The notes under the pieces were generated by a model. The model saw only the letters and a list, made by a program, of their open reading frames with translations. It made no database searches and was not told the DNA's origin. DNA of 22,553 nucleotides, from positions 1 to 22,553 of the IMG/VR virus record IMGVR_UViG_3300044616_001697, one strand, 5' to 3'. This DNA comes from a virus. Made by a program: the position numbers and the translations under genes. Below, in pieces: positions 3,759-21,554 of the stretch (positions are counted from its first letter, which is position 1; each line of letters opens with the position of its first letter).

Positions 3759-4265
3759 TCACCCATTCTCCATCTGATAAAGAATCTTTCTTAGACCACG
3801 AGTGTTAATATAATTTTCCATGGCCTCTTTTAGAAATTGATTCAAAAACTCTGTAGAAGTAGGAACAGAATAACCTTTCAGTTTAACCGCCTTGTAGAGC
3901 ATTTTAAAATCTTTTATTATCTTTTTGTCCAACAATAAGATTTCGTCTTTTTTAGCTTTCTCCCATGTAACATTATTAACAGAACAATCCATTCTGTCTT
4001 TACTTTTATACTTGATTCTTTTTGAATTAGAAATGTTGGGGAGAAATGCTTTTGCAACTAAGTTACCTACAAGAATACATCTTCTACGGTGAGTTTTATC
4101 ATAAATCCAGACAGCCTTATTTGTCTTTACTCTTCCATCTTTTAGTTTAATGAGAGTGTTATTTCTTTTCATTGACCATATTTCGCCAGAGTCAGAGACG
4201 AAATACCCCTCAAAGTCCTCGTAACCGGAAATGCTATTTATTGCCGTCAAATTGGTTGGTATCAC
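3759..4265 (-). CDS. NUMOD4-type protein, degenerate HNH endonuclease relative
   Basis: The 168-residue protein starts with a NUMOD4-like segment (residues 11-34: ISGYEDFEGYFVSDSGEIWS), the DNA-recognition module common in phage HNH homing endonucleases. It continues with GNLVAKAFLPN (67-77), the usual lead-in to the HNH core. Where active relatives have a His-rich NHIDGN-like motif, this protein has IKYKSKDRMDCSVNNVTWE (84-102): the NN..W tail is kept but the catalytic histidines are absent. The C-terminal 60 residues are helical. It is leftward, alone, amid rightward genes, as expected of an inserted mobile gene. Probably a DNA-binding but nuclease-dead relic, or a repurposed regulator. Confidence 0.75.
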   Translation of the reverse strand: MIPTNLTAINSISGYEDFEGYFVSDSGEIWSMKRNNTLIKLKDGRVKTNKAVWIYDKTHRRRCILVGNLVAKAFLPNISNSKRIKYKSKDRMDCSVNNVTWEKAKKDEILLLDKKIIKDFKMLYKAVKLKGYSVPTSTEFLNQFLKEAMENYINTRGLRKILYQMENG

Positions 4266-4299: not shown

Positions 4300-4640
4300 T
4301 TCTGTATGAAAGTTAGTATTTTTAAGAGTTTTCTTGTCATAGTATAGGAATTGTGAATTGATAATGATTGTTATTGGTTAATAATTCGTATTGTTTAATT
4401 ATTGATAATATTTCGTATCGTTTATCGTTTGTTATTGTTATTCGTATTGTTTATTGTGTTTAAGACCCTTATTGATAAGAATTCGTATTGTTTATTGTTT
4501 ATTATTGTAATTCGTATCATTTATTGTGTTTGATCTGGTTATTGTTGTTATTGTGTTTGAGACCCTTATTGATAATAATTCGTATCGTTTATTGTGTTTG
4601 ATCTGGTTATTGTTGTTATTGTGTTTGAGACCCTTATTAT
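4300..4640. repeat. TTATTG-rich repeat block in gene-free stretch
   Basis: The divergent intergenic space between 4265 and 4855 holds no credible gene. Much of it is built from TTCGTAT[TC]GTTTATTG and TTGTTGTTATTG words. A ~60-bp segment at 4511-4570 recurs almost perfectly at 4579-4638 (68-bp period), with shorter relatives from about 4370. All T/G-rich words lie on the + strand here. No start codon with a ribosome site was seen. Confidence 0.75.
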
Positions 4641-4667
4641 TCTTAGTAATCTCGGGCTTCCTGTGAT

Positions 4668-4724
4668 AACAACAGCAACCACCAATAACAACAGCAACCA
4701 CCAATAACAACAGCAACCACCAAT
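4668..4724. repeat. 19-bp tandem repeat, three copies
   Basis: Three perfect head-to-tail copies of AACAACAGCAACCACCAAT (4668-4686, 4687-4705, 4706-4724), followed by a partial fourth. The unit contains the reverse complement of the TTGTTATTG words immediately to the left, so strand composition switches abruptly at about 4660. Confidence 0.9.
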
Positions 4725-4800
4725 AACCACAGCAAAAGAATAACAAACTTATTGATAATCATTCTCAATAATACCATAAGAGATCCTAATACCCCAACTC

Positions 4801-5397: not shown

Positions 5398-5420
5398 CAC
5401 CTGTTACAATAACTAACATT

Positions 5421-5455
5421 TGCTTCGGTATTATTATATCGGAGCATTTGTTATA
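5421..5455 (+). terminator. Hairpin terminator, TGCTTCGGTAT type
   Basis: An 11-bp stem (5421-5431 with 5436-5446, two wobbles) and a 4-base loop, followed by TTTGTTATAT. The hairpin and its flanks recur identically at 12653-12684, more than 7 kb away. Other hairpins with different stems share the TAT....ATA apex. Confidence 0.7.
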
Positions 5456-5539
5456 TCTTTACATTTAGTCTTAATAACATCTTATAGTGTCCGTAAGAGT
5501 TATTATACATGATACAATGCACTAATGGTCCATGAGTGT

Positions 5540-8076: not shown

Positions 8077-8385
8077 ATGAAAATCTATCTTGATGATGAG
8101 CGGTCAACACCAACAGGATGGATTCGTTGTTATTGGCCCGATGAGGTTATAACACTTCTACAGAATAACATCGTTGATATTATCTCACTGGATCACGATC
8201 TTGGTGATGATAATAGAGGCACAGGAAACGATGTAATCTTATGGATTGAAGAACAAGTCTTTACCAATAACTATAAGCCGCCGATTATTCAGGTGCATTC
8301 GGCTAACAGTTCTGCGAGATTGAAGATGGAGAATGGTATTAAATCCATTCAAAGACGAGTAGCGAGACTCTGTGCCACTTCATAA
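8077..8385 (+). CDS. cREC-like receiver-fold protein (cyclic-phosphate processing receiver)
   Basis: The 102-residue protein matches the stand-alone receiver-fold family I know as cREC. It opens with MKIYLDDER (residues 4-9 carry the acidic pair), then TGWIRCYWPDEVITLL, a central ISLDHDLGDD (36-45), RGTGNDVILWIEE and a C-terminal QVHSANSSAR (72-81). The conserved Asp cluster and the HSAN loop would form an active or metal site unlike ordinary phosphorelay receivers. Published comparative genomics proposes a role in processing cyclic phosphates in RNA repair and phage-host conflict; no activity is shown here. The last residues (CATS) are encoded by the next leader repeat, so the natural C-terminus has been altered by that insertion or junction. 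Confidence 0.85.
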   Translation: MKIYLDDERSTPTGWIRCYWPDEVITLLQNNIVDIISLDHDLGDDNRGTGNDVILWIEEQVFTNNYKPPIIQVHSANSSARLKMENGIKSIQRRVARLCATS

Positions 8386-9279: not shown

Positions 9280-9317
9280 CAACCATACACATTTAACAAT
9301 AAACACCAATAATATCT

Positions 9318-9346
9318 GCTGAGGTATAACAATACTTCAGCTTTTG
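9318..9346 (+). terminator. Cassette 1 hairpin
   Basis: Stem GCTGAGGTAT / ATACTTCAGC around AACA, followed by TTTTGTTATA. First hairpin of the hairpin-plus-promoter cassette series. Confidence 0.75.
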
Positions 9347-9378
9347 TTATATTCTTATTTTTTGTCTTAAAAAATGAA

Positions 9379-9490
9379 TAGGGTGTCCGTATCTGTATTC
9401 TACTGATGGTGTTGGGATCCGTCAAGCATTCTTCCATAAGCAATTCTGATCGGTTAAGGGGTTGACCTAAGCGGTTCCAGGGTCTATATT
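9379..9490 (+). promoter_or_regulatory. Cassette 1 promoter block
   Basis: A conserved block (GTCCGTATCTGTATTCTA, then GTCAAG, then TTCTGATCGGTTAA) leads into TTGACC (9462-9467), a 17-base spacer and TATATT (9485-9490). An ATG abuts the -10 at 9491, but transcription should begin downstream of it. Confidence 0.85.
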
Positions 9491-9517
9491 ATGGAAGTTC
9501 ATCAGACAAGCCTTCTT

Positions 9518-9886
9518 ATGTCCCGGAATCCCGCTCCCGAACTGAAGCACGACATTGCAGTTCATGAGGGGTTCGTAACCCTGAATAATAACGATGATGG
9601 TTTCTATACACAATACTTCAATAATCGGGAAGAGGTTGAGCAATTCATCGCTGAGCTACGTGAGGCAATGGATAATGTATGGCCGGATGGTGTTAATCCT
9701 GAAGAACTGCAGGAAGAATGTTATCAAAAACGAGAGGAAGAGCGTCAAGAATACTTGCGCAATAATCCTCCTCGGCCACAAACACCAGAAGAGATTGAAC
9801 GTAATAAAAGGCTGATGACACTTCTTGATAAACTGGCTAATGATGATTCATATAGTGTTTGTTCTCATGTAGCGGAAAATCCCTGA
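9518..9886 (+). CDS. Hypothetical charged protein, 122 aa
   Basis: Unrecognised. Residues 8-45 look like a small β-sheet (HDIAVHEGFVTLNNNDDGFY, TQYF). Residues 46-100 are a long, highly charged helix (REEVEQFIAELREAM, then QKREEERQEYL). A PPRPQTPEEIERNKRL link and a tail ending CSHVAENP follow. I chose ATG 9518 because the upstream in-frame ATG at 9491 directly abuts the promoter -10 and would lie upstream of the transcript. No Shine-Dalgarno is evident. Confidence 0.7.
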   Translation: MSRNPAPELKHDIAVHEGFVTLNNNDDGFYTQYFNNREEVEQFIAELREAMDNVWPDGVNPEELQEECYQKREEERQEYLRNNPPRPQTPEEIERNKRLMTLLDKLANDDSYSVCSHVAENP

Positions 9887-10127
9887 TTCATCACACCATA
9901 AGCACCTATCCACAACATAATACGTTAACACCCTCCTCTACCACTGCCTTTTCAGCGACATTATTGTGCTCAGGGAGTCCTTTATCCTTGAGCACATTTT
10001 TGTAGCTGAGATCCAAGATGATCTAAATAAATCTAAAAAACCTTTTATCGGGAATTTCGGTCTGAAGGTGCTATGGGTCATTCCGTCAAATAAGATCACC
10101 GATAATTTCATTGTTATAATAAATGTT
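9887..10127. other. Gene-poor spacer, possible gene remnant
   Basis: A frame from a GTG at 9966 runs about 50 plausible codons (LRESFILEHIFVAEIQDDLN, KSKKPFIGNF) and then reads into the leader repeat at 10128. It may be the remnant of a truncated gene. No ribosome site, full product or terminator was found. No other gene is visible here. Confidence 0.35.
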
Positions 10128-10200
10128 ATGTGCCAGTCCATAAGCTGTCCACCGATACTCTCATGTTCCCATAATCTGCTGTATTGTTAAGAAGTCTTCA
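10128..10200 (+). promoter_or_regulatory. Family D/B leader repeat, distal copy
   Basis: GTGCCAGTCCATAAGCTGTC, CACCGATA..., then AATCTGCTGTATTGTTAAGA and AGTC. It matches the leader at 8370-8440 and precedes the gene at 10205. Confidence 0.55.
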
Positions 10201-10204
10201 GAGA

Positions 10205-10549
10205 ATGTCTCTCATGGCTCTCAATTGGAAAGTTCCTGTTTCTTCTCTTCTGAGCCGTCTTCAGGATAATGACTATAAGATTTTCTCAGTCAATAATGGA
10301 GGCGAGACTATTCTTATTGACCAGAATCTTTCCAATGGAACTGCAAGAGCAAAGGCAGTAGAAGAGATTGTTTCTGTAGACGCATCTGCAATTGCTCTTA
10401 TCAAGAATAAACAAACATTTGCGGTTTATATTGTATTAGGTAATGATCCACATGAGATTGCAGCCGATTATACTAATGATGAAGAATTGGAAAAAGTTAT
10501 TGATGAATTTGCTGATAGTTGGCAGGATAAGAAATGTCCTAGGATGTGA
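10205..10549 (+). CDS. Hypothetical protein, 114 aa
   Basis: Unrecognised soluble α/β-looking protein: VSSLLSRLQDNDYKIFSVNN, GGETILIDQNLS, then VSVDASAIALIKN and FAVYIVLGNDPHEI, ending in an acidic helix (EELEKVIDEFADSW). ATG 10205 is the first ATG after the leader; MALNWK at 10214 is an alternative. AGAGA before the ATG is only a weak ribosome site. A clear terminator follows at 10567. Confidence 0.75.
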   Translation: MSLMALNWKVPVSSLLSRLQDNDYKIFSVNNGGETILIDQNLSNGTARAKAVEEIVSVDASAIALIKNKQTFAVYIVLGNDPHEIAADYTNDEELEKVIDEFADSWQDKKCPRM

Positions 10550-10566
10550 AACAATGATGAAATAAT

Positions 10567-10597
10567 AACCCTAGAGTAATTCTGGGGTTTTATTGTT
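10567..10597 (+). terminator. Cassette 2 hairpin
   Basis: Stem AACCCTAGA / TCTGGGGTT (with wobble) followed by TTATTGTTTATA. Confidence 0.75.
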
Positions 10598-10625
10598 TAT
10601 AATTTGAGAAGAAAAATAAGATAGT

Positions 10626-10733
10626 CTGTCCGTATCTCTATTCTAGTCGTATTTTATCGGCTGTCAAGGTCTGAACTGATAAGCACTTCTGATCGGTTAA
10701 AGGCTTGACGTAGGCATCAATCCGGTCCATACT
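10626..10733 (+). promoter_or_regulatory. Cassette 2 promoter block
   Basis: The conserved GTCCGTATCTCTATTCTA and GTCAAGGTCTGAACTGATAA blocks lead into TTGACG (10705-10710), 17 bases and CATACT (10728-10733). The ATGG after the -10 is a leftover of the repeat, not a start. Confidence 0.85.
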
Positions 10734-10758
10734 ATGGAAGTCAACCGGAACCGATCCG

Positions 10759-10926
10759 ATGGCCCAAACCTTCCGCCCTGTCTGCGACATTCAGAGCAGA
10801 AATCCGTTCATGGTAGCGGTAATCAAAGATGATGAGAACCTTCTCATCGACGGGGAACCTTCAGTAATTCCAATGTGGTGGATCGCATCGGAATATGCGA
10901 AACTTTATGCTGGTGATGTGAAATGA
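10759..10926 (+). CDS. Hypothetical protein, 55 aa
   Basis: A short protein beginning MAQTFRPVCDIQSRNPFMVA, with VIKDDENLLIDG and a Trp pair before a short helix (IASEYAKLYAGDVK). The ATG at 10759 follows AACCGGAACCGATCCG, the same 5' leader used by the gene at 12213, which fixes the start. Its TGA overlaps the next ATG (ATGA), so it heads a coupled three-gene unit. Not recognised. Confidence 0.75.
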   Translation: MAQTFRPVCDIQSRNPFMVAVIKDDENLLIDGEPSVIPMWWIASEYAKLYAGDVK

Positions 10927-11132
10927 GCAATACTAAATTCCGAATTGTTAAATATAACGATTCCTTTGAAGAACTTCACATTCTTCAAGTCTGTCACTCG
11001 TATGAGGAAGCAGACCAAAGATTCCAATACTGGGATGAGAAATACCCAAACGATTATATTGAAATTCTTACTCCAGAAGACTGGAGATATTTTCAATTAG
11101 GTTCTAATCCCTCTGTTTTTGTTACATCATGA
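10923..11132 (+). CDS. Hypothetical protein, 69 aa
   Basis: Starts in the ATGA overlap with the preceding gene. MSNTKFRIVKYN, then LQVCHSYEEADQRFQYWDEK and IEILTPEDW give a β-α-β pattern of a kind common in small phage proteins that re-align side chains of 'Y..A...F' helices, but no named family is recognised. It overlaps the next gene by four bases. Confidence 0.8.
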   Translation: MSNTKFRIVKYNDSFEELHILQVCHSYEEADQRFQYWDEKYPNDYIEILTPEDWRYFQLGSNPSVFVTS

Positions 11133-11491
11133 TTTTCCAAACAAGTTACACGATCACCGGGCATCTTCAGCGCCAATTAGCGGCAGTTGCTACTCCAATC
11201 GTTGAGAATTGGTTCACAGATGTACTGATCCACGACACTGCTGCTACCGAAGATATGGAAATTGGCGAAGTTCGTTTATGGGCACTTCGCAAAACGGGTA
11301 CATGGTTGTGTACTCTGAAGCAAGATATTTCTGAGCATAACGAATTCACTGGACTTGTTACTTCAATTATGAGGCATCCCGATGAATATAATGACGGATA
11401 TTATCATCTTTTTCTATTGCATAAGATCTCAGCAGATAAGCTGAAGATTACACCGACAACTTATGAAGAAATGTCCTATGTGAATGTGTGA
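11129..11491 (+). CDS. Hypothetical protein, 120 aa
   Basis: Third gene of the coupled 10759-11491 unit (four-base ATGA overlap). The protein begins MIFQTSYTITGHLQRQLAAV and contains EVRLWALRKTGTWLCTLKQD, followed by YYHLFLLHKIS. A β-rich core is likely. Not recognised. A terminator hairpin lies 11 bases after the stop. Confidence 0.8.
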   Translation: MIFQTSYTITGHLQRQLAAVATPIVENWFTDVLIHDTAATEDMEIGEVRLWALRKTGTWLCTLKQDISEHNEFTGLVTSIMRHPDEYNDGYYHLFLLHKISADKLKITPTTYEEMSYVNV

Positions 11492-11502
11492 GATAACAAA
11501 TG

Positions 11503-11530
11503 CCCCGGAGAAATCTGGGGTTTTTATTGT
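11503..11530 (+). terminator. Cassette 3 hairpin
   Basis: Stem CCCCGGA / TCTGGGG around GAAA, then TTTTTATTGTTTATA. Confidence 0.85.
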
Positions 11531-11560
11531 TTATACTTTGATAAGAAAAATAGAATAGGA

Positions 11561-11668
11561 TCTCCGTATCTGTATTCTAGTCATATTTTTATCGGTTGTC
11601 AAGGTCTGGAGTCATAACCATTTCTGATCGGTTGAAGGCTTGACGTATGCGGCTTCCGGGTCCATACT
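11561..11668 (+). promoter_or_regulatory. Cassette 3 promoter block
   Basis: The CTCCGTATCTGTATTCTA and GTCAAGGTCTGGAGTCATAA blocks lead into TTGACG (11640-11645), 17 bases and CATACT (11663-11668). Confidence 0.85.
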
Positions 11669-11698
11669 ATGGAAGTCAACCGCAAGGAAATTGATCCC

Positions 11699-11995
11699 AT
11701 GGACCAAGCCGATTTTCTCGCTATTGCCAAAGAAACCGCATCTTACGTGATAGAGCACGAGCGGAATAATGTTCTGAGCAACAAAAATAATCTTGATCTT
11801 TCAACATTCAGTTCCTTTCTTGATGGGATCAAAGGCCACCAATACTATAATGCCTTAGTGTTGAAATGTGATGGATGTGAGACGTACATTCTCATGCAGC
11901 TTAATACAGATTATCGTGAAATCGTGTGTAGAATGTCGGGTGATGAAGCCCGCGAATTCGTAGAGCATTTTCATGATATTGTCCTGAACGAATGA
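11699..11995 (+). CDS. Hypothetical protein, 98 aa, donor of a duplicated C-terminus
   Basis: Soluble protein: MDQADFLAIAKETASYVIEH helix, a middle with LVLKCDGCETYILMQLNTDY and a C-terminal helix REIVCRMSGDEAREFVEHFH. The last 26 or so residues, and the DNA behind them, recur at the end of the gene at 12443-12607. ATG 11699 is chosen because it lies about 30 bases after the -10 with AAGGAAA upstream; the ATG at 11669 abuts the -10. The fold resembles small roadblock-like or phage αβ proteins, but I cannot assign it. Confidence 0.75.
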   Translation: MDQADFLAIAKETASYVIEHERNNVLSNKNNLDLSTFSSFLDGIKGHQYYNALVLKCDGCETYILMQLNTDYREIVCRMSGDEAREFVEHFHDIVLNE

Positions 11996-12013
11996 TCTGA
12001 ATACAAACACATT

Positions 12014-12045
12014 TGCTAGGGTATAACAATACTCTAGCATTTGTT
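12014..12045 (+). terminator. Cassette 4 hairpin
   Basis: Stem TGCTAGGGTAT (12014-12024) / ATACTCTAGCA (12029-12039) around AACA, then TTTGTTATAG. Confidence 0.75.
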
Positions 12046-12076
12046 ATAGTCTTATATTTTGTGGAAAAATAAGATA

Positions 12077-12187
12077 GTCTGTCCGTATCTCTATTCTACT
12101 GGTAATAATCCAGTTTGTCAAGGTCTGGAGTCATAAGCACTTCTGATCGGTTAAGGGCTTGACGTATGCGGCTTCCGGGCCCATACT
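12077..12187 (+). promoter_or_regulatory. Cassette 4 promoter block
   Basis: The conserved GTCTGTCCGTATCTCTATTC and GTCAAGGTCTGGAGTCATAA blocks lead into TTGACG (12159-12164), 17 bases and CATACT (12182-12187). Here the ATG after the -10 is mutated to AAG, showing that it is not needed as a start. Confidence 0.85.
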
Positions 12188-12212
12188 AAGGAAGTCAACC
12201 GGAACCGATCCG

Positions 12213-12410
12213 ATGAGCAACCTTTCCCCAACCGTTTATCAAGACAACGGATTCGCAGATAGGAAAGAATACCTCGATTCTTTGCGGGAAGAGTATGGCG
12301 GTTTGGTGGATGTTCTCACCAGCATTCTTCCAGCATCAGAAGATTTTGATGGCTTGGTTACGGAATTGGAAGATGCTCTGGCCAGCGGAGAATATGACGA
12401 ATTGATCTGA
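12213..12410 (+). CDS. Small acidic protein, 65 aa
   Basis: Begins MSNLSPTVYQDNGFADRKEY, followed by an amphipathic acidic stretch (LREEYGGLVDVLTSIL, FDGLVTELEDALASGEYDEL). It is strongly negatively charged, as many small phage proteins that mimic nucleic acid or bind host enzymes are, though no such role is shown. The start follows AACCGGAACCGATCCG as at 10759; the apparent upstream start at 12159 is the TTG of the -35 box. Confidence 0.75.
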   Translation: MSNLSPTVYQDNGFADRKEYLDSLREEYGGLVDVLTSILPASEDFDGLVTELEDALASGEYDELI

Positions 12411-12442
12411 TTTCTTACTTTTATTCCATCGCATTTCTTCCC

Positions 12443-12607
12443 ATGGACGCTTCCAACCTTTCCGCATCACAAGCTAGAGAAAAGATCATTGAATGGGGAG
12501 AAGAATTCACATTTGAGATTGTCTGTCGTGAAATCGTGTGTAGAATGTCGGGTGATGAAGCCCGCGAATTTGTGGAGGATTTTCATGATAATGTCCTGAA
12601 CAATTGA
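12443..12607 (+). CDS. Chimeric small protein with copied C-terminus, 54 aa
   Basis: The N-terminal half (MDASNLSASQAREKIIEWGE) is unique. From residue 29 the sequence REIVCRMSGDEAREFVEDFH almost repeats the end of the 11699-11995 protein, and the DNA is nearly identical over about 70 bp. The gene therefore looks like a recombination product between a new 5' part and a copied 3' part. It lacks a Shine-Dalgarno; a TTTCTTCCC tract precedes the ATG. A hairpin terminator identical to the one at 5421 follows. Confidence 0.65.
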   Translation: MDASNLSASQAREKIIEWGEEFTFEIVCREIVCRMSGDEAREFVEDFHDNVLNN

Positions 12608-12652
12608 GAAGATCAAATCTTGGTACAATTGAATAACAAATACAAACACATT

Positions 12653-12684
12653 TGCTTCGGTATTATTATATCGGAGCATTTGTT
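12653..12684 (+). terminator. Cassette 5 hairpin (identical to 5421)
   Basis: TGCTTCGGTAT (12653-12663) / ATATCGGAGCA (12668-12678), then TTTGTTATAT. Same sequence and flanks as the hairpin at 5421-5455. Confidence 0.75.
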
Positions 12685-12715
12685 ATATTATTATACTTTC
12701 TTGTAAAAATAGAAT

Positions 12716-12827
12716 AGTCTGTCCGTATCTCTATTCTACTGGTAATAATCCAGTTTGTCAAGGTCTGGAGTCATAAGCACTTCTGATCGGTTAAGGGCTT
12801 GACGTTTGCCACGGCTGGGTCCATACT
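12716..12827 (+). promoter_or_regulatory. Cassette 5 promoter block
   Basis: Nearly identical to cassette 4 through the start of the -35. TTGACG (12799-12804), 17 bases, CATACT (12822-12827). Confidence 0.85.
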
Positions 12828-12857
12828 AAGTAAGTCAAACAACCCGGAAGGTTTCCG

Positions 12858-13208
12858 ATGAACTCGTCTCATCCGATCTTTAAGAGTCTTCCTTCTCTTA
12901 AAAGGGAGATTCGGGAACTTCTCATCTCAATCAAAAAAGATCAGGATTGGAAACAACTTCGCGCTGATTTTTCGGATGATGAGACACCACATATTCAGGT
13001 GACCATCGGTTGCACATTTAATGAAGGTACAATCTCATGGAATTATCAAACTGGAGACAATTCCTACACTGGTGGTGCTTATGACCACCCAGAATGGTTC
13101 ATTGTTTATCTAACGAGTCGTGCAAATTGTTCTAACGAAGCGAAAGATATTATCAGTGAAATTGAAGGAAGAATTTATGAGTGCTTTAGCACTCTTAACA
13201 ATAACTAA
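12858..13208 (+). CDS. Hypothetical protein, 116 aa
   Basis: Soluble protein with an N-terminal basic helix (FKSLPSLKREIRELLISIKK), a β-rich, aromatic centre (VTIGCTFNEGTISWNYQTGD, then AYDHPEWFIVYLT) and a C-terminal acidic helix (EAKDIISEIEGRIYECF). GGAAGG 7 bases before ATG 12858 supports the start. Not recognised. The next gene follows 20 bases after the stop. Confidence 0.8.
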   Translation: MNSSHPIFKSLPSLKREIRELLISIKKDQDWKQLRADFSDDETPHIQVTIGCTFNEGTISWNYQTGDNSYTGGAYDHPEWFIVYLTSRANCSNEAKDIISEIEGRIYECFSTLNNN

Positions 13209-13228
13209 TCCATTCATTCTGTGATTCC

Positions 13229-13495
13229 ATGTTCTCACTTTTCTTCTTCACTGGCAATGATCCCGAATTAGCTTTTGATATTAAAGATAGAATTGCACGA
13301 TATATTGATGAATACGTCAAAGAAGGCGAATTTGATACCTATGAAAGTGCAATTGATCGGATGAATAATATCGGATCCCGTTGGATATTTTATCCTAATG
13401 CTTGTATTATTGAAGGCGAAAAAGTTATAGGGATTTATATGGAGGATGGAGTTAATTATACTCCGAAGAAAATTGAAGAGTTTGTGGAAGTATAA
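13229..13495 (+). CDS. Hypothetical protein, 88 aa
   Basis: Begins MFSLFFFTGNDPELAFDIKD; the short hydrophobic start is too short to be a signal peptide. A helix (RIARYIDEYVKEGEFDTYES) and a strand-rich tail (WIFYPNACIIEGEKVIGIYM) follow. It is acidic. It is probably cotranscribed with the preceding gene and ends at a hairpin 9 bases after the stop. Not recognised. Confidence 0.75.
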   Translation: MFSLFFFTGNDPELAFDIKDRIARYIDEYVKEGEFDTYESAIDRMNNIGSRWIFYPNACIIEGEKVIGIYMEDGVNYTPKKIEEFVEV

Positions 13496-13504
13496 CAAAC
13501 AAAA

Positions 13505-13535
13505 GGGTTGGGTATAACAATACCTGACCCGATCT
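13505..13535 (+). terminator. Cassette 6 hairpin
   Basis: Stem GGGTTGGGTAT (13505-13515) / ATACCTGACCC (13520-13530) around AACA. It lacks a clean T tract but matches the loop of the other cassette hairpins. Confidence 0.65.
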
Positions 13536-13571
13536 TATAGTCTTATATTTTCTTGTAAAAATAGAGTAGGC

Positions 13572-13679
13572 TTCCCGTATCTGTATTCTATTGGTGATAA
13601 TTCAGTTTGTCAAGATCTGGACTGATAAGCACTTCTGATCGGTTAAACGGTTGACGGTGGCCGATGGTGGTTGTATATT
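13572..13679 (+). promoter_or_regulatory. Cassette 6 promoter block
   Basis: The TTCCCGTATCTGTATTCTA and GTCAAGATCTGGACTGATAA blocks lead into TTGACG (13651-13656), 17 bases and TATATT (13674-13679). Confidence 0.85.
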
Positions 13680-13720
13680 ATGGGTGTTCAAACATTCCTG
13701 GCAGGTTGCCGGCTCCACCG

Positions 13721-13885
13721 ATGCGATTCTCAACCCCACAGAAGATTTCCAAATTTTTCTATCTGGGATGGAATCCGAATTCTTATGATGAGATTTTCGG
13801 ATTCTCTCTTTTGAATTTTTACGTCGGATTCTACTACGAATCTGGCTGGTGTGCGGGATTTCTTGACGCGAATGGGTGCCTCTGA
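13721..13885 (+). CDS. Aromatic-rich small protein, possible 5' half of a broken gene
   Basis: A 54-residue frame rich in Phe and Tyr (KISKFFYLGWNPNSYDEIFG, FYVGFYYESGW). Its ATG lies at the position equivalent to ATG 14603 in the duplicated next unit, so the start is supported by homology of the leader. It overlaps the following frame by 35 bases in a different frame. Either it is a separate coupled gene or, with a frameshift, the N-terminal part of one protein with 13851-14282. Not recognised. Confidence 0.5.
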   Translation: MRFSTPQKISKFFYLGWNPNSYDEIFGFSLLNFYVGFYYESGWCAGFLDANGCL

Positions 13886-14282
13886 AAAGTATTACAATCC
13901 TCTCGCAGTCTTTCCCATGAAATCACTCAAGATCCCCGTTGTTCTCACCACAACAAAAATAACTGAAGATCAATGGAAAGAGTTTATTTCTGATACAATC
14001 GGTGACATTTCTGGTGAAATGGTTACAGTTGGGCCATGGCAAGTTCCGGTTAAGTTTGTGGCACTAGCAGCATCTTATACGTGGAAAAATGAAGGTTATG
14101 GGGCTGTTATTGAATCTGTTACGCTATATGGAAAGCGCACGCTATGCAGAGTAAAAGAAAGCGACTATAAGTTGGAGGGTATCGTTAGCATTAAAGGTGT
14201 GAAGAGGAGAGCCTATACTTCTTCCATTATGTTTGAACTTCCCGATGGTCGGCTATATAATGTGGCAACAATTCAGGTATGA
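13851..14282 (+). CDS. Paralogue of the 14603-15370 C-terminal domain, 143 aa
   Basis: From residue 23 (MKSLKIPVVLTTTKITEDQW) to the end this protein is very close to the C-terminal 123 residues of the protein encoded at 14603-15370, including EFISDTIGDISGEMVTVGPW, VTLYGKRTLC and the ending ELPDGRLYNVATIQV. The domain is β-rich and of unknown function. Possible starts are GTG 13851, ATG 13872 and ATG 13917 at the edge of the conserved domain; none has a good ribosome site. The 5' neighbour differs between the two paralogues, which indicates domain shuffling after duplication. Confidence 0.8.
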   Translation: MRDFLTRMGASEKYYNPLAVFPMKSLKIPVVLTTTKITEDQWKEFISDTIGDISGEMVTVGPWQVPVKFVALAASYTWKNEGYGAVIESVTLYGKRTLCRVKESDYKLEGIVSIKGVKRRAYTSSIMFELPDGRLYNVATIQV

Positions 14283-14308
14283 AATAGCAAACACAATAAT
14301 TATACAAT

Positions 14309-14340
14309 GGCCCCGATTAACCTCCGGGGTTTTTTATTGT
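14309..14340 (+). terminator. Cassette 7 terminator
   Basis: CCCCG / CGGGG stem, then TTTTTTATTGTC. The region from here to about 14430 recurs after the 15370 stop. Confidence 0.85.
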
Positions 14341-14448
14341 CTTCTAATCTATTTGTTATTTTCTATAACAGTCTGTAGCATTTGTTTGTATTATTATATG
14401 CGTCTAATTTGTTTGTTATATTATTATACTTTATGAAAAAACAGTACA

Positions 14449-14560
14449 GGGCTCCCGTTGATTTAATTATACAGCCGAGGCTGGCCATAGTCAAGGTCTG
14501 GAGTCATAAGCATTCCTGATCGGTTAAACGGTTGACGGTGGCCGATGGTGGCTGTATATT
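14449..14560 (+). promoter_or_regulatory. Cassette 7 promoter block
   Basis: The GTCAAGGTCTGGAGTCATAA and CTGATCGGTTAA blocks lead into TTGACG (14532-14537), 17 bases and TATATT (14555-14560). The far-upstream CCGTATC block is replaced here by unrelated sequence. From the -35 through about 40 bases past the -10 it matches cassette 6. Confidence 0.85.
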
Positions 14561-14602
14561 ATGAGAGTCCAAACATTCCTGGCAGGTTGCCAGGCTCATT
14601 CC

Positions 14603-15370
14603 ATGGAAAGGCTCAAAGGTTCTAGTCTTGCTCGCACCGTTAAATTCATGCGGGAAGCCGGAAAGACTACTAAAGAGATAGTAATATCTTGTGGATACGG
14701 TAGAGAAGAAGAAGGTAAAATTCCACATTATACAGCATTTTACGAGGAGCTTCTTATCGTTCGTGATAACGAAAAGCGATATGAAGCGATGTCTAGTAAT
14801 GTGAACAAACGCCGCGATAATGTTTTGCATTATTTGCTTTCTGCAATTGAGTATAGAACGAAATATGAATATAGAAACGATTGGGCAGATCGTTGTGATT
14901 ATAGCGAGGAATCATACAGTGCTGATGATAACTATATTGTCCGTTATTATGGCGATAAGATTGCACTTTTCACCCAAACTGGGGTGCAATTTTTTATTCC
15001 TTCAATGAAATCTCTCACTCTTCCCGTTAATGTCACCACAGCAAAAATAACCGTTGAGCAATGGAAAGAGTTTATTTCCGAAACAATCGGGGACATTTCT
15101 GGTGAAATGGTCACAGTTGGGCCATGGAAAGTTCCGATTAAGATTGTAGCACTAGCAGCATCTTATACGTGGAAAAATGATGGTTACGGTGACTTTATTG
15201 AATCTGTTACGCTATATGGAAAGCGGACTCTCTGCAATGTAAAAGAAAGCGGCTATGATTTGGAAGGTATCGTTAGCATTAAAGGTGTGAAGAGGAGAGC
15301 CTATACTTCATCCATTATGTTTGAACTGCCAGATGGGCGCCTATATAATGTGGCAACCATTCAGGTATGA
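14603..15370 (+). CDS. Two-domain hypothetical protein, 255 aa
   Basis: The N-terminal part (about 130 residues) begins MERLKGSSLARTVKFMREAG and continues KTTKEIVISCGYG, then YTAFYEELLIVRD. This short 'GY....FYE.LL' pattern resembles small regulator-like proteins of cyanobacteria and their phages, but the match is weak. The C-terminal 123 residues are nearly the same as the 13851-14282 protein. ATG 14603 is preferred; the in-frame ATG at 14561 abuts the promoter -10 and is outside the expected transcript. AGG lies about 10 bases upstream. Function unknown. Confidence 0.8.
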   Translation: MERLKGSSLARTVKFMREAGKTTKEIVISCGYGREEEGKIPHYTAFYEELLIVRDNEKRYEAMSSNVNKRRDNVLHYLLSAIEYRTKYEYRNDWADRCDYSEESYSADDNYIVRYYGDKIALFTQTGVQFFIPSMKSLTLPVNVTTAKITVEQWKEFISETIGDISGEMVTVGPWKVPIKIVALAASYTWKNDGYGDFIESVTLYGKRTLCNVKESGYDLEGIVSIKGVKRRAYTSSIMFELPDGRLYNVATIQV

Positions 15371-15396
15371 AATAGCAAACACAATAAGTATACAAA

Positions 15397-15430
15397 GGCC
15401 CCCGGTTTAATCGCCGGGGTTTTTTATTGT
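15397..15430 (+). terminator. Terminator ending the rightward cassette array
   Basis: CCCCGG / CCGGGG stem followed by TTTTTTATTGTCTTC. The downstream ~70 bp copy the sequence after cassette 7's terminator, but no promoter block follows. Confidence 0.85.
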
Positions 15431-15775
15431 CTTCTAATCTATTTGTTATTCTCTATAACAGTCTGTAGCATTTGATTGTATTGTTATATCGGTTGATGTG
15501 TTTGTTATTGTTATTGTGTGTTATGTGTATTTGTTTGTATTATTAACAGTGTGTAATGACAGTTGATTTGTTATTTTGTATGCTTATCGGCCCCGCCTAG
15601 CGATAATAATCCATAAGCCCCCCAATAACCCCCAATAATCCATAATAAGCCCCCAATAATAATCTGACCCTTTGAAATAATATATCAAATATCCATGGGT
15701 CCCCTATACCCCCTTAAAATATACCGATACCATTTTTTCAAAAAATTTCCGCCGGCAAAAATTTTCCCAAAAGGG
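15431..15775. other. Gene-free boundary with low-complexity tracts
   Basis: No gene is visible between the convergent units. The left half is T/G-rich (TTGTTATTGTTATTGTGTG). From about 15590 it switches to C/A-rich runs (CCCCCCAATAACCCCCAATA, then GCCCCCAATAATAATC). Near 15740 it ends in AAAAAATTTCCGCCGGCAAA and AATTTT, an imperfect palindrome centred on GCCGGC-like bases. It marks the change from the early cassette region to the conserved late-side genes, and may be an origin, terminator or packaging-neutral spacer. Confidence 0.6.
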
Positions 15776-16178: not shown

Positions 16179-16447
16179 TTTGTGATCCCCAATTCATTAT
16201 AGCGTTCTCTATTTTCAGGTAGTTGAAACTTATGCATGTGAGATTTTTTCTCTAATTTTTCAAGACGTTGAAAGATTTCTACCATAATACCATACAACTT
16301 ATCTTCTCCATTGGGATTATTTTCCAGATCAATAAGAAATGATAACTTATTCCAATAATCTTTTTTACTCATTTTGTCTTCGTCGCCAAATACCACCCTA
16401 ACACGAAAATCTCTTTCTGTCAAGTGGTCCAGTGAACGAACTGACAC
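16175..16447 (-). CDS. Hypothetical protein, 90 aa
   Basis: First gene of the leftward unit 16447-15776. The product (MSKKDYWNKLSFLIDLENNP, then YGIMVEIFQRLEKLEKKS) is helical, with a possible short coiled coil near residues 55-70. The frame opens at GTG 16447; ATG 16372 is an alternative that would give 65 residues. Neither has a strong ribosome site, but the first 25 codons look coding. Not recognised. Confidence 0.65.
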   Translation of the reverse strand: MSVRSLDHLTERDFRVRVVFGDEDKMSKKDYWNKLSFLIDLENNPNGEDKLYGIMVEIFQRLEKLEKKSHMHKFQLPENRERYNELGITK

Positions 16448-16494
16448 ACAGATTTTCTACATAGATTGATTCAGTAAAAATCGTCTTTAATCTT

Positions 16495-16692
16495 ATGAAG
16501 GAAACCAAATATCACATCTATCTCAATAATAAATGTGTTAATTATAATCTATCTGAAGCAGAATTTAATAAAATCTGGAATGATTATCTACACATGGCGA
16601 CCATTCATAAAAATCTCAACAGAGAAGATCTATCTTATGAAGAGGTGGTGTTTGACAAATCAACCTACTCTCTTCAAGGTACTATATACTGA
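16495..16692 (+). CDS. Conserved T4-type cyanophage-like hypothetical, 65 aa
   Basis: The pattern KYHIYLNNKCVNYNLSEAEF, then a W-containing helix and DLSYEEV, is one I recall as a short protein conserved across T4-type cyanophages, usually near structural genes and of unknown role. It is divergent from the 16447 unit and begins a rightward run with the glycosyltransferase. The ribosome site is weak. Confidence 0.75.
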   Translation: MKETKYHIYLNNKCVNYNLSEAEFNKIWNDYLHMATIHKNLNREDLSYEEVVFDKSTYSLQGTIY

Positions 16693-16717
16693 GCACTGAA
16701 GTTTATAAAGGTGAAAC

Positions 16718-17602
16718 ATGAAAGGTTTTAAAGTGAAAGCGGTAGAACCGGTTCAAGAGGATATGGATACTCTTATTGAACGAGCAAAGAATAAACTAAA
16801 AGGAAAGACCATCGTATTCTGTCTTCCCGGTAGATCGGTTTCTTATACATTCTTAAAGAATTTTGTTCAGTTATGTTTTGATCTTGCTGGTAATGGTACC
16901 GCATTTGCCATTCAACAAGATTATTCTTCCATGGTGAATTTTGCTCGTTGTAAATGTCTTGGTTATAATGTAACCCGAGGTAAGTTTCAGATTCCTTGGG
17001 ACGGTAGATTACATTATGATTATCAAATGTGGATTGATAGTGATATCGTCTTTAACAGCGCGGTTTTTTGGAAATTGATTGATACTGCCATTTTTAACGA
17101 AGAGAAAGCCGATAACAGAAATTCAGAACAATGGCCGCTAATGAATAAAACCGAAGAGGAATTAGATTCCATCGGTCGTTGGAATGAAGCTGTTCGTAAA
17201 GAAAGAATTCAACGACTCAATCTAAAATGTAATCCTGTTACCAGTGGTTATTATGCCACCGAAGATCGCACCACCGTTCCCGTTGCACACTGGATCTACG
17301 ATGGTGAAGAATTTATTCGCAATGGTGGTATGATGAAATCAGAAACACTAGAATCCATGGCCGCTCGTAAAAAACCATTTACTTGCGATTACGTTGGTTT
17401 TGGATTCGTATTAGTGGCTCATGGTGTTTTTGAAAATATGATCTATCCGGTCTTTGGTCCTAAATTACAAGCCTACGATAATGGTATTGAAGACTTCTGT
17501 GGGGAAGACGTTGGCTTCTGTCTCGATGCAAAGGAACTCGGAGTTGAGATTGTTGTAGATCCCGCTGTACGAGTTGGTCACGAGAAAATGGTTGTACTCT
17601 GA
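16718..17602 (+). CDS. GT-A fold glycosyltransferase-like protein
   Basis: The 294-residue protein has a nucleotide-sugar transferase layout: an N-terminal TIVFCLPGRSVSYTFLKNF (31-49), then SSMVNFARCKCLG and YDYQMWIDSDIVF with the metal-binding DSD at 107-109, a long middle with a VTSGYYA segment, and a C-terminal GEDVGFCLDAKELGVEIVVD (262-281) ending VRVGHEK, where Glu/Asp and His are typical acceptor and metal residues. Enzymes of this type add sugars to DNA, protein or glycan; the acceptor here is unknown. AAGGTG precedes the ATG, and the stop overlaps the next start (TGATG). Related genes occur in T4-type cyanophages. Confidence 0.85.
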   Translation: MKGFKVKAVEPVQEDMDTLIERAKNKLKGKTIVFCLPGRSVSYTFLKNFVQLCFDLAGNGTAFAIQQDYSSMVNFARCKCLGYNVTRGKFQIPWDGRLHYDYQMWIDSDIVFNSAVFWKLIDTAIFNEEKADNRNSEQWPLMNKTEEELDSIGRWNEAVRKERIQRLNLKCNPVTSGYYATEDRTTVPVAHWIYDGEEFIRNGGMMKSETLESMAARKKPFTCDYVGFGFVLVAHGVFENMIYPVFGPKLQAYDNGIEDFCGEDVGFCLDAKELGVEIVVDPAVRVGHEKMVVL

Positions 17603-17745
17603 TGTACTGGAACATTTATTACGACAATAAGCTTCTATATAAAGAAGTAACAGACGAAGAACGCAAAACGATACAGAGAGCATTAATGGAAAAAGTCACA
17701 GATGGCGCAATGGACATTACACTTATTAAAATGGAGGTAGTATGA
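17602..17745 (+). CDS. Small hypothetical protein, 47 aa
   Basis: Starts in the TGATG overlap with the glycosyltransferase gene and ends in a TATGA overlap with the next start, so it is tightly coupled on both sides. The product MYWNIYYDNKLLYKEVTDEE (helix follows: RKTIQRALMEKVTDGAMDIT) is a short strand pair plus helix. Too small to stand out as an ORF, but the overlaps argue for a real gene. Not recognised. Confidence 0.75.
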   Translation: MYWNIYYDNKLLYKEVTDEERKTIQRALMEKVTDGAMDITLIKMEVV

Positions 17746-17879
17746 AAAAGAATTTATCGGGCGGAAGAATTATTGAATCCCAGCCCAAAAAATCACGTCA
17801 AGGAGATGGCAAACACACCAAAAACTCTGCAACCAGTAGAAATGCAAAACGCAAACCCACTCGCGGTCAAGGCCGTTGA
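17742..17879 (+). CDS. Small basic SGGR...RGQGR protein, 45 aa
   Basis: Very basic peptide: MKKNLSGGRIIESQPKKSRQ, a GDGKHTK centre and the ending KRKPTRGQGR. I recall short proteins with the same SGGR / TRQG / RGQG skeleton in many T4-type cyanophage genomes, of unknown role. High Lys/Arg and Gly suggest nucleic acid or ribosome contact. GGAGGT 4 bases upstream is a strong ribosome site, and the ATG overlaps the preceding stop. Its 3' part overlaps the next gene in another frame. Confidence 0.8.
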   Translation: MKKNLSGGRIIESQPKKSRQGDGKHTKNSATSRNAKRKPTRGQGR

Positions 17880-18282
17880 AGAATGGATTCAAAGAGTCTC
17901 TCAGTCTCGTTCAGAGCTGGGAGGCTTTTCTGTATGTCCTTATGCATCTAAAGCATCTTATAAGATCGTTGAATGTGACATTGATAAACTAGAACTCCTA
18001 TCAAATTATGATATTCTAATTTACATCGTCAATGAGTCTTTACTAGAAGAAATCAATAAATGGATAGAACATTATAACGAAGAGTATTCAGATTGGATCT
18101 TTCTAGAAGACTGTGCTACCTACGATACCTTTATTAATGGTGTTCAGACCAATAACGGAAGTCTCAATTTAATACTTGCTCAGCCCAAGAAAGATTTACT
18201 AAAAGCCCGCGAAGCATTAAAAAAGACCAGTTACTATTCGTTCTGGTCCGATGAGTATTATAATGAAATCGTTGGAGATTAA
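17842..18282 (+). CDS. DUF1415-like protein, 146 aa
   Basis: Residues 1-40 (MQNANPLAVKAVEEWIQRVS, then SRSELGGFSVCPYASKA) resemble the CPFA-type N-terminus of DUF1415, and the C-terminus LLKAREALKKTSYYSFWSDE fits phage versions I recall. The biochemical role of the family is not known. ATG 17842 is preferred because it starts at the conserved part; ATG 17806 would add 12 residues inside the preceding gene. The gene overlaps the RGQGR gene by 38 bases, and its TAA shares four bases with the stop of the convergent gene at 18279. Confidence 0.75.
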   Translation: MQNANPLAVKAVEEWIQRVSQSRSELGGFSVCPYASKASYKIVECDIDKLELLSNYDILIYIVNESLLEEINKWIEHYNEEYSDWIFLEDCATYDTFINGVQTNNGSLNLILAQPKKDLLKAREALKKTSYYSFWSDEYYNEIVGD

Positions 18283-18650
18283 CGAAGTCTTACGTTAGCG
18301 AGATTGGTTGTTCTTTTTCTTTTCTCTTCCTGCGATGCCTGAGGCTTTTCGTTTCTAATCTTTTCTTGAGTATCGGCAAGATTTCTTAATGCAACAGTAT
18401 AACGCTGTCTTTGTTTTGGAGATACCTGCTTCATCTGCCAATCAAGAAGAATAGAATGTTTCCAATCTTCGCTCATTACACTCATAATATTTCTGGCAGC
18501 ATCTTCGCTATCAACAAAGCCCTCATCAATCAGATATTCAAGAACCAGATCATAAAGCTCTACATCCTCTTTTTGAAACACTTCTGAAGAATTGGTGCTT
18601 TCATAAACACCCAAATAAGCCTCGTGAAGACTATAATACTTACCGTTCAT
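18279..18650 (-). CDS. Virion/structural-type protein with ARNIM-MSE-W-SIL motif, 123 aa
   Basis: The central segment VELYDLVLEYLIDEGFVDSE, followed by DAARNIMSVMSEDWKHSIL, matches a motif I recall from T4-type cyanophage virion proteins ('EEVDLYDVI...LLDEGYAD..EAA..IM.NMSE.W...I'). The same motif ends the protein at 20642-21220. The rest is polar and basic. Its own late-type promoter (CTAAATA) lies 23-29 bases upstream. Probably a structural or head-associated protein; exact place unknown. Confidence 0.75.
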   Translation of the reverse strand: MNGKYYSLHEAYLGVYESTNSSEVFQKEDVELYDLVLEYLIDEGFVDSEDAARNIMSVMSEDWKHSILLDWQMKQVSPKQRQRYTVALRNLADTQEKIRNEKPQASQEEKRKRTTNLANVRLR

Positions 18651-18672
18651 TATTGTTTTTTAGAATATAAGT

Positions 18673-18679
18673 TATTTAG
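18673..18679 (-). promoter_or_regulatory. Late-type promoter motif CTAAATA
   Basis: TCTAAATAAC on the minus strand, 23-29 bases upstream of the 18650 start. It resembles T4 late promoters (TATAAATA) and matches the three other copies near 21250 and 21530. Confidence 0.6.
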
Positions 18680-18688
18680 AATTTATTG

Positions 18689-19327
18689 CTAAAATGGTAG
18701 TAATGCACCTAGAGTAGTCTTAACAAGAAAATCTTTAGCTTTTCTCACTGGTTTTGATCTAGCTATTCTTCTACCAGAATTTCTTGATTGTTTTGTTAGA
18801 ACTCTATTTGCCTTTCTTGTGACGGATTTTATTTTGCGATCTCTTTCTCTTACTCTTTTTAGTTTGTCTCGTAATGCTTTCTTTGTGTTTTTATCAGTGG
18901 TGTTTTTAATTTGTTTCTGGATTCGTTGCACTTGCCCAAAAATCTCCATGATCAATTCTTCGCTCAATTTTGGATTTCTAATTCTACTATCCGAAACACT
19001 AAAATCTTTATTTCTTCCGCTATTTTTGTTGAAACCAAAAGACTTATAGAATTTTTCTAACTTTCCTTTCTTTCCCTTATCGGCTTGTGGTGTTAGTGTA
19101 ACTCTTTTGTTTTGTTTATCGGCATAACGAGTCAGACCTTTCATCGCTCTTGAGCCGATTCCTTGATTTCTTTTTTCTTTTGGTACTTCAATTGAATGAA
19201 GACGAATATCACCACTATTACTAAGAGTAGAATGAAACTTCATTCCAGGATGTTTTCTTCGCCAGGCAGAGCCTATTTTATCTAAGGATTCTTGTGATTC
19301 GGCAATAAACTGGCGAAAGGTTTTCAT
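18689..19327 (-). CDS. Capsid-targeted GNAT-type acetyltransferase
   Basis: 212 residues. Residues 1-10 MKTFRQFIAE followed by S form a T4-like capsid-targeting peptide with an I-A-E cleavage site for the head-maturation protease. Residues 43-62 (LHSIEVPKEKRNQGIGSRAM) contain the GNAT motif A, RNQGIGS, that holds acetyl-CoA pyrophosphate, and 92-99 (KFYKSFGF) is motif B. The C-terminal third is a long, very basic region, perhaps for DNA binding in the head. Most likely an acetyltransferase packaged and injected with DNA to modify host proteins; substrate unknown. The start overlaps the upstream stop by four bases. Confidence 0.8.
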   Translation of the reverse strand: MKTFRQFIAESQESLDKIGSAWRRKHPGMKFHSTLSNSGDIRLHSIEVPKEKRNQGIGSRAMKGLTRYADKQNKRVTLTPQADKGKKGKLEKFYKSFGFNKNSGRNKDFSVSDSRIRNPKLSEELIMEIFGQVQRIQKQIKNTTDKNTKKALRDKLKRVRERDRKIKSVTRKANRVLTKQSRNSGRRIARSKPVRKAKDFLVKTTLGALLPF

Positions 19328-19872
19328 CTTCTTTTTGGTTGAGTTTTAGTTCTTTGTGGTTTATCTTTTGCTCTTATTGTTGGCGGCGCATTTTTGCTGA
19401 TGTTCTTGTTAGCGGTATCTATGTCAACCATAATATAACTTCCCTTACCAGCTTTTGCACCCGCATTATGAGCATCTGGTACCCGAACTATTTTATGACC
19501 TCTCTTGATGTATTCTCTAGATTGTTGTATAGGACTTACCTTCTTTGCTCTTTTCATGAGTTCTTCACCTTCATATTTTTGTAGTAGCTCCTTTTTCTTT
19601 TCTCTAGATTTTTTATGTGATATTGTATTTGTTACTTTAGGATTAACAAATTTAAGATTCACTCTAGAATAACCATAATCATTACCCACTCTAGGTGTAG
19701 GAGTTGTATATACAGTTTTATTAGTTTTTTCTGGATGATAAGTTCCCGATGACGGAGATTCTTTGAAGCCTGATTTTAAAATGGAATTTTTATTTTCTCT
19801 AGAAGTGTAATGAGCGGTTCTCAAAACTCTCATTCTTTTGGCTTCGGTAATAAACTGGCGAAAGGTTTTCAT
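19324..19872 (-). CDS. Capsid-targeted ADP-ribosyltransferase-like protein
   Basis: 182 residues. Residues 1-11 MKTFRQFITEA match the T4 internal-protein targeting peptide, with cleavage expected after Glu 10. The body follows an ADP-ribosyltransferase-like pattern: HYTS (21-24), ILKSGF (31-36), VYTTP (54-58), DYGYS (65-69), then late GHKIVRVPDAHNAGAKAGKG and SYIMVDID, like ART-fold toxins with a 'VRVPD....YI.FD' ending. The catalytic Glu is not certain. T4 packages its own ADP-ribosyltransferase, Alt, so an injected modifier is plausible. It overlaps both neighbours by four bases. Confidence 0.65.
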   Translation of the reverse strand: MKTFRQFITEAKRMRVLRTAHYTSRENKNSILKSGFKESPSSGTYHPEKTNKTVYTTPTPRVGNDYGYSRVNLKFVNPKVTNTISHKKSREKKKELLQKYEGEELMKRAKKVSPIQQSREYIKRGHKIVRVPDAHNAGAKAGKGSYIMVDIDTANKNISKNAPPTIRAKDKPQRTKTQPKRR

Positions 19873-20282
19873 CTTCCAAATTTTCTAATATTACTTTTTG
19901 CATTACCAACTTCAATATATTTTTTTGTTTTTCGGTTTTCTATATCACGTTTCATCTCTCTTGATTCGGGATGACTTAAATCACCACGAACCATTCTAGA
20001 AAACATTCTTCCCTGCCTATAACCTTTTAGTTTATCAATTCTAGTCCTAACCTCTTTTTTAGTGTCGGGTAAATTACCACTGTCTGTTCTATAATCATCC
20101 CGGGATTTTTTATCATATTTGGCGCCTCTGTTTGCAGAATGAAACATGCGCCTGATTCCAGTTTGTCGATCTCTTAATGAAGTTGATCCTGTTGCTCTTT
20201 TGTTTCTTATGTCCTCTTTTTCTAAAGGACTAAGATTTTTTTCTTGTTTGGCCTCGGCCATAAACTCTCTATAAGTCTTCAT
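19869..20282 (-). CDS. Capsid-targeted basic internal protein, 137 aa
   Basis: Starts MKTYREFMAEAKQEK, the closest here to the T4 internal-protein peptide MKTYQEFIAEA, with a predicted cleavage after Glu 10. The rest is a strongly basic, low-hydrophobicity chain (SLRDRQTGIRRMFHSANRGA, KYDKKSRDDYR, KKEVRTRIDKLKGYRQGRMF) suited to DNA packing. No enzymatic motif seen. The true start is ATG 20282, immediately after the upstream stop; the longer frame from 20426 is inside the metallopeptidase gene. A likely internal head protein. Confidence 0.8.
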   Translation of the reverse strand: MKTYREFMAEAKQEKNLSPLEKEDIRNKRATGSTSLRDRQTGIRRMFHSANRGAKYDKKSRDDYRTDSGNLPDTKKEVRTRIDKLKGYRQGRMFSRMVRGDLSHPESREMKRDIENRKTKKYIEVGNAKSNIRKFGR

Positions 20283-20283
20283 A

Positions 20284-21220: not shown

Positions 21221-21243
21221 CGGGTGCGCCTAGTAGATAATCC

Positions 21244-21250
21244 TATTTAG
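21244..21250 (-). promoter_or_regulatory. Late-type promoter motif, leftward
   Basis: CTAAATA on the minus strand upstream of the 21220 start. It is back to back with the rightward copy at 21262, so the intergenic space holds divergent late promoters. Confidence 0.65.
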
Positions 21251-21261
21251 AATTTTGACAC

Positions 21262-21268
21262 CTAAATA
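21262..21268 (+). promoter_or_regulatory. Late-type promoter motif, rightward
   Basis: CTAAATAACC, 64 bases upstream of the 21332 gene, which has AGGAG ahead of its ATG. Confidence 0.6.
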
Positions 21269-21331
21269 ACCTTGGTGATTAAGGAACCACCTTAAAAGTT
21301 TCTCTTAATCCAAATTTAGGAGAATAGACTA

Positions 21332-21532: not shown

Positions 21533-21535
21533 ATA
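21529..21535 (+). promoter_or_regulatory. Late-type promoter motif upstream of gp25
   Basis: CTAAATAACT, overlapping the 21532 stop and 20 bases before the gp25 ATG. Same sequence as at 21262. Confidence 0.6.
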
Positions 21536-21554
21536 ACTCTTAATTTAGTATAAA

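Follow-up and report, generated by a model that had tools for sequence, protein, structure and literature searches.

Why should one stretch of ~200 nt be repeated seven times between the small accessory genes of a virus? The question is raised by the IMG/VR record IMGVR_UViG_3300044616_001697, a fragment of a T4-like virus that was analyzed as the whole record of 22,553 bases (hereafter the window), in which positions 9306-14600 carry seven such cassettes. The cassette is quite probably both a joint between modules of accessory genes and a complete two-way regulatory unit, with recombination between cassettes exchanging the modules; promoter and terminator activity is throughout a prediction from sequence.

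The seven copies proposed in an earlier sequence-only reading of this DNA are all present and can be aligned over ~200 nt. The blocks that it had assigned to every copy, namely GTCAAG, a CTGATCGGTT block with slightly varying flanks and TTGAC[C/G]-N17-[TATATT/CATACT], were each identified in 7/7 cassettes, and CCGTATCT.TATTCTA, which it had placed in most copies, is found in six and missing from copy 7. Because the divergent pair GTCAA-N34..39-TTGAC was seen seven times, as compared with a mean of 0.03 and a maximum of 1 in 500 dinucleotide shuffles, chance is excluded as an explanation of the array. A hairpin-only cassette remnant, consisting of the left arm alone, lies on the plus strand at 5414..5495. 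A search of the window against Rfam produced no matches.

The sequence-only reading overlooked that, as predicted signals, GTCAAG and CCGTATCT.TATTCTA provide the -35 and -10 boxes of a minus-strand promoter that diverges from the rightward one. On the minus strand GTCAAG reads CTTGAC and TATTCTA reads TAGAATA, which gives a leftward TTGACA-N17-TAGAAT, a near-consensus sigma70 promoter; with this second promoter on the opposite strand, the cassette would therefore be bidirectional. The leftward promoter was found in all seven window copies, with a spacer of 16 in copy 2, and both promoters were found in 20/20 core-bearing cassettes of the window and of two related viruses, G001 (IMGVR_UViG_3300044591_002420, 125 kb) and G002 (IMGVR_UViG_3300042556_001633), the spacer being 17 in all but one case of 16. 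When only the operator-like motif was used to locate sites in the three viruses, 19/19 had a leftward TTGAC and, at 16-17 nt from it, a -10 box; one of these sites has lost the rightward TTGAC and kept the leftward pair. In a consensus scan of the region six leftward promoters rank at the top with 11/12 matches, the rightward ones reaching 9-10, and the same scan of G001 likewise ranked leftward promoters best. Information content is 1.9 and 1.5 bits per position in the leftward hexamers versus 0.6 in the spacer. In copy 7 other sequence takes the place of the CCGTATCT block and the promoter is retained as TTGACT-N17-TATAAT, and in two more distant relatives, L503 and L506, the surroundings differ, yet those copies that have a full core retain TTGACA-N17-TATACT. 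Since the hexamers are far more conserved than the spacers and the -10 box persists in different surroundings, this pattern is read as the footprint of a promoter.

The -35 boxes of the paired promoters are 36-37 bp apart and enclose an operator-like core, in which ATAAGCANNTCTGATCGG is preceded by C or G and is partly two-fold symmetric. The bare divergent TTGAC pair is unspecific, being widespread among other viral contigs; it is the core motif that is specific. Short patterns such as TTCTGATCGGTTAA and CCGTATCTNTATTCTA gave mostly chance matches in IMG/VR; the motif CATAAGCANNNCTGATCG is almost confined to such arrays, in five related records, and a reversed control pattern had no matches. 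The core pattern was absent from 84,980 GTDB species genomes.

The same cassette is present in G001 as seven full copies, confined to one region, and in G002 as six full copies plus partial ones. The core pattern also matches L503, L506 (a 250 kb record) and, once, L505; L503 and L506 bear arrays of 7-8 copies with a different left arm and the same plan. Arrays that differ in sequence and follow the same plan were found in Synechococcus phage B23 (MN695335) and two B23-like contigs. In B23, the sole record in the phage collection to match the B23/L506-type element, five copies of a related element all lie at 115.3-119.3 kb of the 243-kb genome. One cassette of another record (L215, 8637-8907) has the left half on both sides, inverted, and is thus a symmetric, doubled cassette. 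The window itself encodes the gp25 baseplate wedge protein (PF04965) at 21555-21953, which identifies a T4-like myovirus and has its best match, at 60%, in phage B23; as psbA was not found in G001, this gp25 similarity is the sole pointer to a cyanobacterial host.

Most cassettes also carry a plus-strand hairpin with a stem of 8-12 bp and a U-rich tail, mostly 47-54 nt from the leftward -10 box, and the stems are unrelated in sequence between copies. The expectation of a hairpin in each cassette held for most copies and failed for copy 7, where the nearest one lies at 14310-14329 and is not adjacent. All 12 folded hairpins contain G-U pairs and all are weaker on the minus strand. Because G-U pairs become C-A mismatches on the other strand, the hairpins would act, if at all, on plus-strand RNA, and they are therefore not expected to stop a leftward transcript efficiently. 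The idea of a leftward small RNA that has a terminator of its own was rejected, a terminator-like site on the minus strand being found only in copy 7 (14446-14458) and in none of the other copies. A structured RNA formed by pairing of GTCAAG with CTTGAC was dropped as well, both arms being -35 boxes.

Evidence for exchange of modules comes mainly from G001, which matches most of window positions 16372-22553 at 97-98% identity, while the gene content of the array differs module by module. Boundaries of the blocks that the window shares with G001 fall in cassettes 2, 3, 5, 6 and 7 (at 10612, 11644, 12836, 13609 and 14419). Of the seven gene junctions that bear a cassette, G001 has kept none, as against 8 of the 12 plain junctions (p = 0.007; 0.026 in the reverse direction). 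The sequence-only reading had suggested looking in related phages for the same cassette beside different genes, and this is what the gene neighbourhoods of G001 and G002 display; a conserved gene order, which it had named as evidence to the contrary, was looked for and not seen. A UvrD-like helicase module of G001 and G002 is missing between the window cassettes. The arms of the cassettes follow their neighbouring genes: the three pairs with a common downstream gene score highest of 49 in the right arm (96%; left arms 91, 64 and 58), and the pair with a common upstream gene scores highest in the left arm (97%, as against 59 in the right arm). Thus the left/core/right identities are 64/83/96 for copy 2 and G001 102938 (common downstream gene), 97/83/59 for copy 3 and G001 103886 (common upstream gene) and 58/85/96 for copy 6 and G001 108250 (common downstream gene), and step profiles locate the identity switch at the core. 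Judged by these alignments, the cassettes are chimeric, the right arm tracking the gene that follows and the left arm the gene that precedes the cassette.

Within the window, too, modules are repeated. One module is duplicated at 13609-14419 and 14490-15525, the gene 13872-14282 having an 86% amino acid duplicate at the end of 14561-15370; at copies 4 and 5, whose cores are identical, a cassette is doubled together with a gene tail. Just before these two copies, 11669-11995 and 12443-12607 have a common 3' end of 82 nt that is 93% identical. The tails, at 11914-11995 and 12526-12607, belong to two otherwise different small genes, and the gene with the shared end is apparently a chimeric gene made at a cassette joint. 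The claim that the genes between cassettes are unrelated was thus mostly right, save for the shared 3' end and the duplicate. Similarly, the term mobile regulatory cassettes is apt as far as terminator and promoter joints between modules are concerned; the moving part is the gene module, the cassettes behaving as joints for homologous recombination, and no transposon-like jumping was shown.

From left to right, the cassette would comprise a plus-strand intrinsic terminator for the left module, the leftward promoter, the operator-like core and the rightward promoter, with its leader, for the right module. As all copies are similar, homologous recombination between them, within one genome or between co-infecting relatives, would most probably swap, delete or duplicate modules of one to few genes. 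A newly acquired module would immediately be given its own promoter in front and a terminator behind. The anatomy, the conservation in relatives and the replacement of modules with an identity switch inside cassettes are read from the sequence; both promoters are predicted to fire with host RNA polymerase and a regulator to bind the core. Homologues of alt, mod, motA and asiA are missing from T4-like cyanophages, whose early genes are believed to be transcribed by host polymerase in its unmodified form (PMC2984593), and the consensus-like cassette hexamers fit such transcription.

Three other explanations have to be weighed against exchange through two-way joints. If only the rightward promoter works, the leftward hexamers might be a by-product of an inverted-repeat regulator site with GTCAAG...CTTGAC arms. 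The dyad symmetry of the core, although partial (9-11 of 18 in several copies), and the near-perfect 15-bp arms in L503 agree with such a site, but it leaves unexplained a -10 box at 17 bp, kept as TAGAAT, TATAAT or TATACT amid entirely different sequence, and this explanation is considered unlikely. It is about equally improbable that modules are exchanged otherwise, by illegitimate recombination or homing endonucleases, and that cassettes are kept at the boundaries by selection for expression. A gene at 3759-4265 on the minus strand does have a weak match to NUMOD4 (homing-endonuclease-like), and 4/12 plain junctions are broken too; however, left and right arms with different histories and a switch in the core are what cassette-to-cassette recombination would produce. 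A transposable or self-mobile element inserting between genes would also be multi-copy, near-identical, intergenic and in varied neighbourhoods. Nevertheless, the same gene pair with and without a cassette was not found among the three genomes, the arms track the neighbouring genes, and in G001 as in B23 the copies found are gathered in a single region, which makes this origin very improbable.

Several observations count against module exchange through two-way cassettes. The adjacency test involved few junctions and hand-curated open reading frames, with some plain junctions broken as noted, and was significant only for the G001 pair, having no power against G002 because the latter is too diverged. 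Cassette homology extends the BLAST blocks into the cassettes, so that exact crossover points cannot be placed inside them. There is no clear adjacent hairpin at window copy 7 or at the sites g2 201 and g2 6451, and in the scan neither TTGAC box was detected near the motif at L503 1404, 5161 and 5839 and at L506 7150.

The leftward promoter points into the upstream module, in which no leftward gene was recognised, and its transcript would therefore probably be non-coding and antisense to that module. A more tentative and rather doubtful proposal is that each exchangeable module is bracketed by convergent promoters, the left cassette giving sense RNA and the better-matching leftward promoter of the right cassette giving antisense RNA, with the shared core operator setting both.

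The resemblance to the promoter-early stem-loops (PeSLs) of T4-type phages, already suggested by the sequence-only reading, is confirmed. As in the PeSLs (described in PMC4503421 and PMC3950731), a terminator stem-loop and a sigma70-type promoter form one repeated composite unit, the units lie in a hyperplastic region of small novel genes (most of which have no informative family matches here), and it is to the units that the shuffling of modules among close relatives can be mapped. Recombination between neighbouring PeSL units reportedly gave small circles in the work of Arbiol from 2010. The original PeSL papers are not known to describe divergent promoters, whereas the cassette has two back-to-back promoters around a shared operator-like core. 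Its promoters are near-consensus TTGACA/TATAAT, unlike the T4 early promoters with GTTTAC at -35 (PMC1524935), and the virus is cyanophage-like. As predicted elements, the cassettes work in a manner already known from PeSLs; their two-way promoter around one operator-like core is a novel variation on it, and they also differ in the type of promoter and in host group. A motif of the haloarchaeal myovirus HGTV-1 likewise places a conserved promoter and inverted repeat before many open reading frames and has been proposed for shuffling; it has an archaeal TATA-box-like region, and the accessible part of the report mentions no divergent promoter (PMC3950731). Lambdoid morons are similar in being accessory genes with their own promoter and terminator, but they are single insertions of distinct G+C content (PMC1524935), whereas the cassette DNA is common to all modules and acts as a joint. 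For antisense RNA in a T4-like cyanophage there is a precedent in CfrI of S-PM2, although this is a single locus at psbA with no cassette (PMC2984593).

Table 1. Predicted cassette elements of the window and one further intergenic element
Feature	Position	Strand	Remarks
Cassette 1 terminator hairpin	9318..9341	+	10-bp stem, dG -12.2, U-rich tail
Cassette 1 leftward promoter TTGACG-N17-TAGAAT	9397..9425	-	
Cassette 1 core between -35 boxes, with CATAAGCAATTCTGATCGG	9421..9466		
Cassette 1 rightward promoter TTGACC-N17-TATATT	9462..9490	+	
Type-2 intergenic element (GTGCCA/TGTCCAC inverted repeat)	10125..10224	+	at another exchange joint
Cassette 2 terminator hairpin	10567..10589	+	
Cassette 2 leftward promoter TTGACA-N16-TAGAAT	10640..10667	-	
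Cassette 2 core	10663..10709		
Cassette 2 rightward promoter TTGACG-N17-CATACT	10705..10733	+	
Cassette 3 terminator hairpin	11502..11521	+	
Cassette 3 leftward promoter TTGACA-N17-TAGAAT	11574..11602	-	
Cassette 3 core	11598..11644		
Cassette 3 rightward promoter TTGACG-N17-CATACT	11640..11668	+	
Cassette 4 terminator hairpin	12014..12039	+	
Cassette 4 leftward promoter TTGACA-N17-TAGAAT	12093..12121	-	
Cassette 4 core	12117..12163		
Cassette 4 rightward promoter TTGACG-N17-CATACT	12159..12187	+	
Cassette 5 terminator hairpin	12653..12678	+	
Cassette 5 leftward promoter TTGACA-N17-TAGAAT	12733..12761	-	
Cassette 5 core	12757..12803		
Cassette 5 rightward promoter TTGACG-N17-CATACT	12799..12827	+	
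Cassette 6 terminator hairpin	13505..13530	+	coordinates read from sequence
Cassette 6 leftward promoter TTGACA-N17-TAGAAT	13585..13613	-	
Cassette 6 core	13609..13655		
Cassette 6 rightward promoter TTGACG-N17-TATATT	13651..13679	+	
Terminator-like hairpin upstream of cassette 7, GCCCCG...CGGGG + T6	14310..14335	+	G+C-rich terminator 14310-14329; by reading
Cassette 7 leftward promoter TTGACT-N17-TATAAT	14466..14494	-	
Cassette 7 core	14490..14536		
Cassette 7 rightward promoter TTGACG-N17-TATATT	14532..14560	+	

Other intergenic repeats were identified in the window. A second family occurs at 5533, 6306, 6710, 6985, 7999, 8367 and 10125, and also in G001, L503, L506 and L128; it consists of an inverted repeat of the GTGCCA-N10-TGGCAC type and, after it, a -10-like TATTGT/TACAAT, with no clear -35, and looks like a set of activator-dependent promoters, possibly of the middle class. 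The third repeat, CTGGCACAGTCCATTGAATAATGGGTTGCTTATGGTCTATTATT, at 746, 1525 and 3096, contains TTGAAT-N18-TATTAT, and low-complexity tandem repeats of ~70 and 19 nt are found in the intergenic stretch 4399-4735. Among the genes outside the array, the C-terminal half of a tyrosyl-tRNA synthetase at 86-759, not found in G001, lies in two frames with a break near 358-376, and 8077-8385 on the plus strand encodes a cyclic-phosphate processing receiver domain protein. Four consecutive minus-strand genes at 18689-20658, with one weak GNAT and one weak M78 peptidase match, start with MKTFRQFI.E, MKTYREFMAEA or MKKYTEFLTES, which resembles the capsid-targeting sequence of T4 internal proteins, and their products may enter the capsid and leave it along with the DNA.

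It has yet to be settled by what route T4-like cyanophages acquire and shed their many uncharacterized small genes. For S-PM2, Puxty et al. set PeSL-type shuffling aside, judging the density of PeSLs in this cyanophage too low to explain gene acquisition (PMC4503421). By contrast, the cyanophage-like clade that includes the isolate B23 has dense arrays of joints, and within the window's own group the sequences give evidence that the joints are used; through its cassettes the virus appears able to exchange genes while still controlling them. The two-way design predicts widespread antisense transcription of accessory genes, and if modules do lie between convergent promoters, captured genes would arrive inside a built-in silencing-and-release switch.

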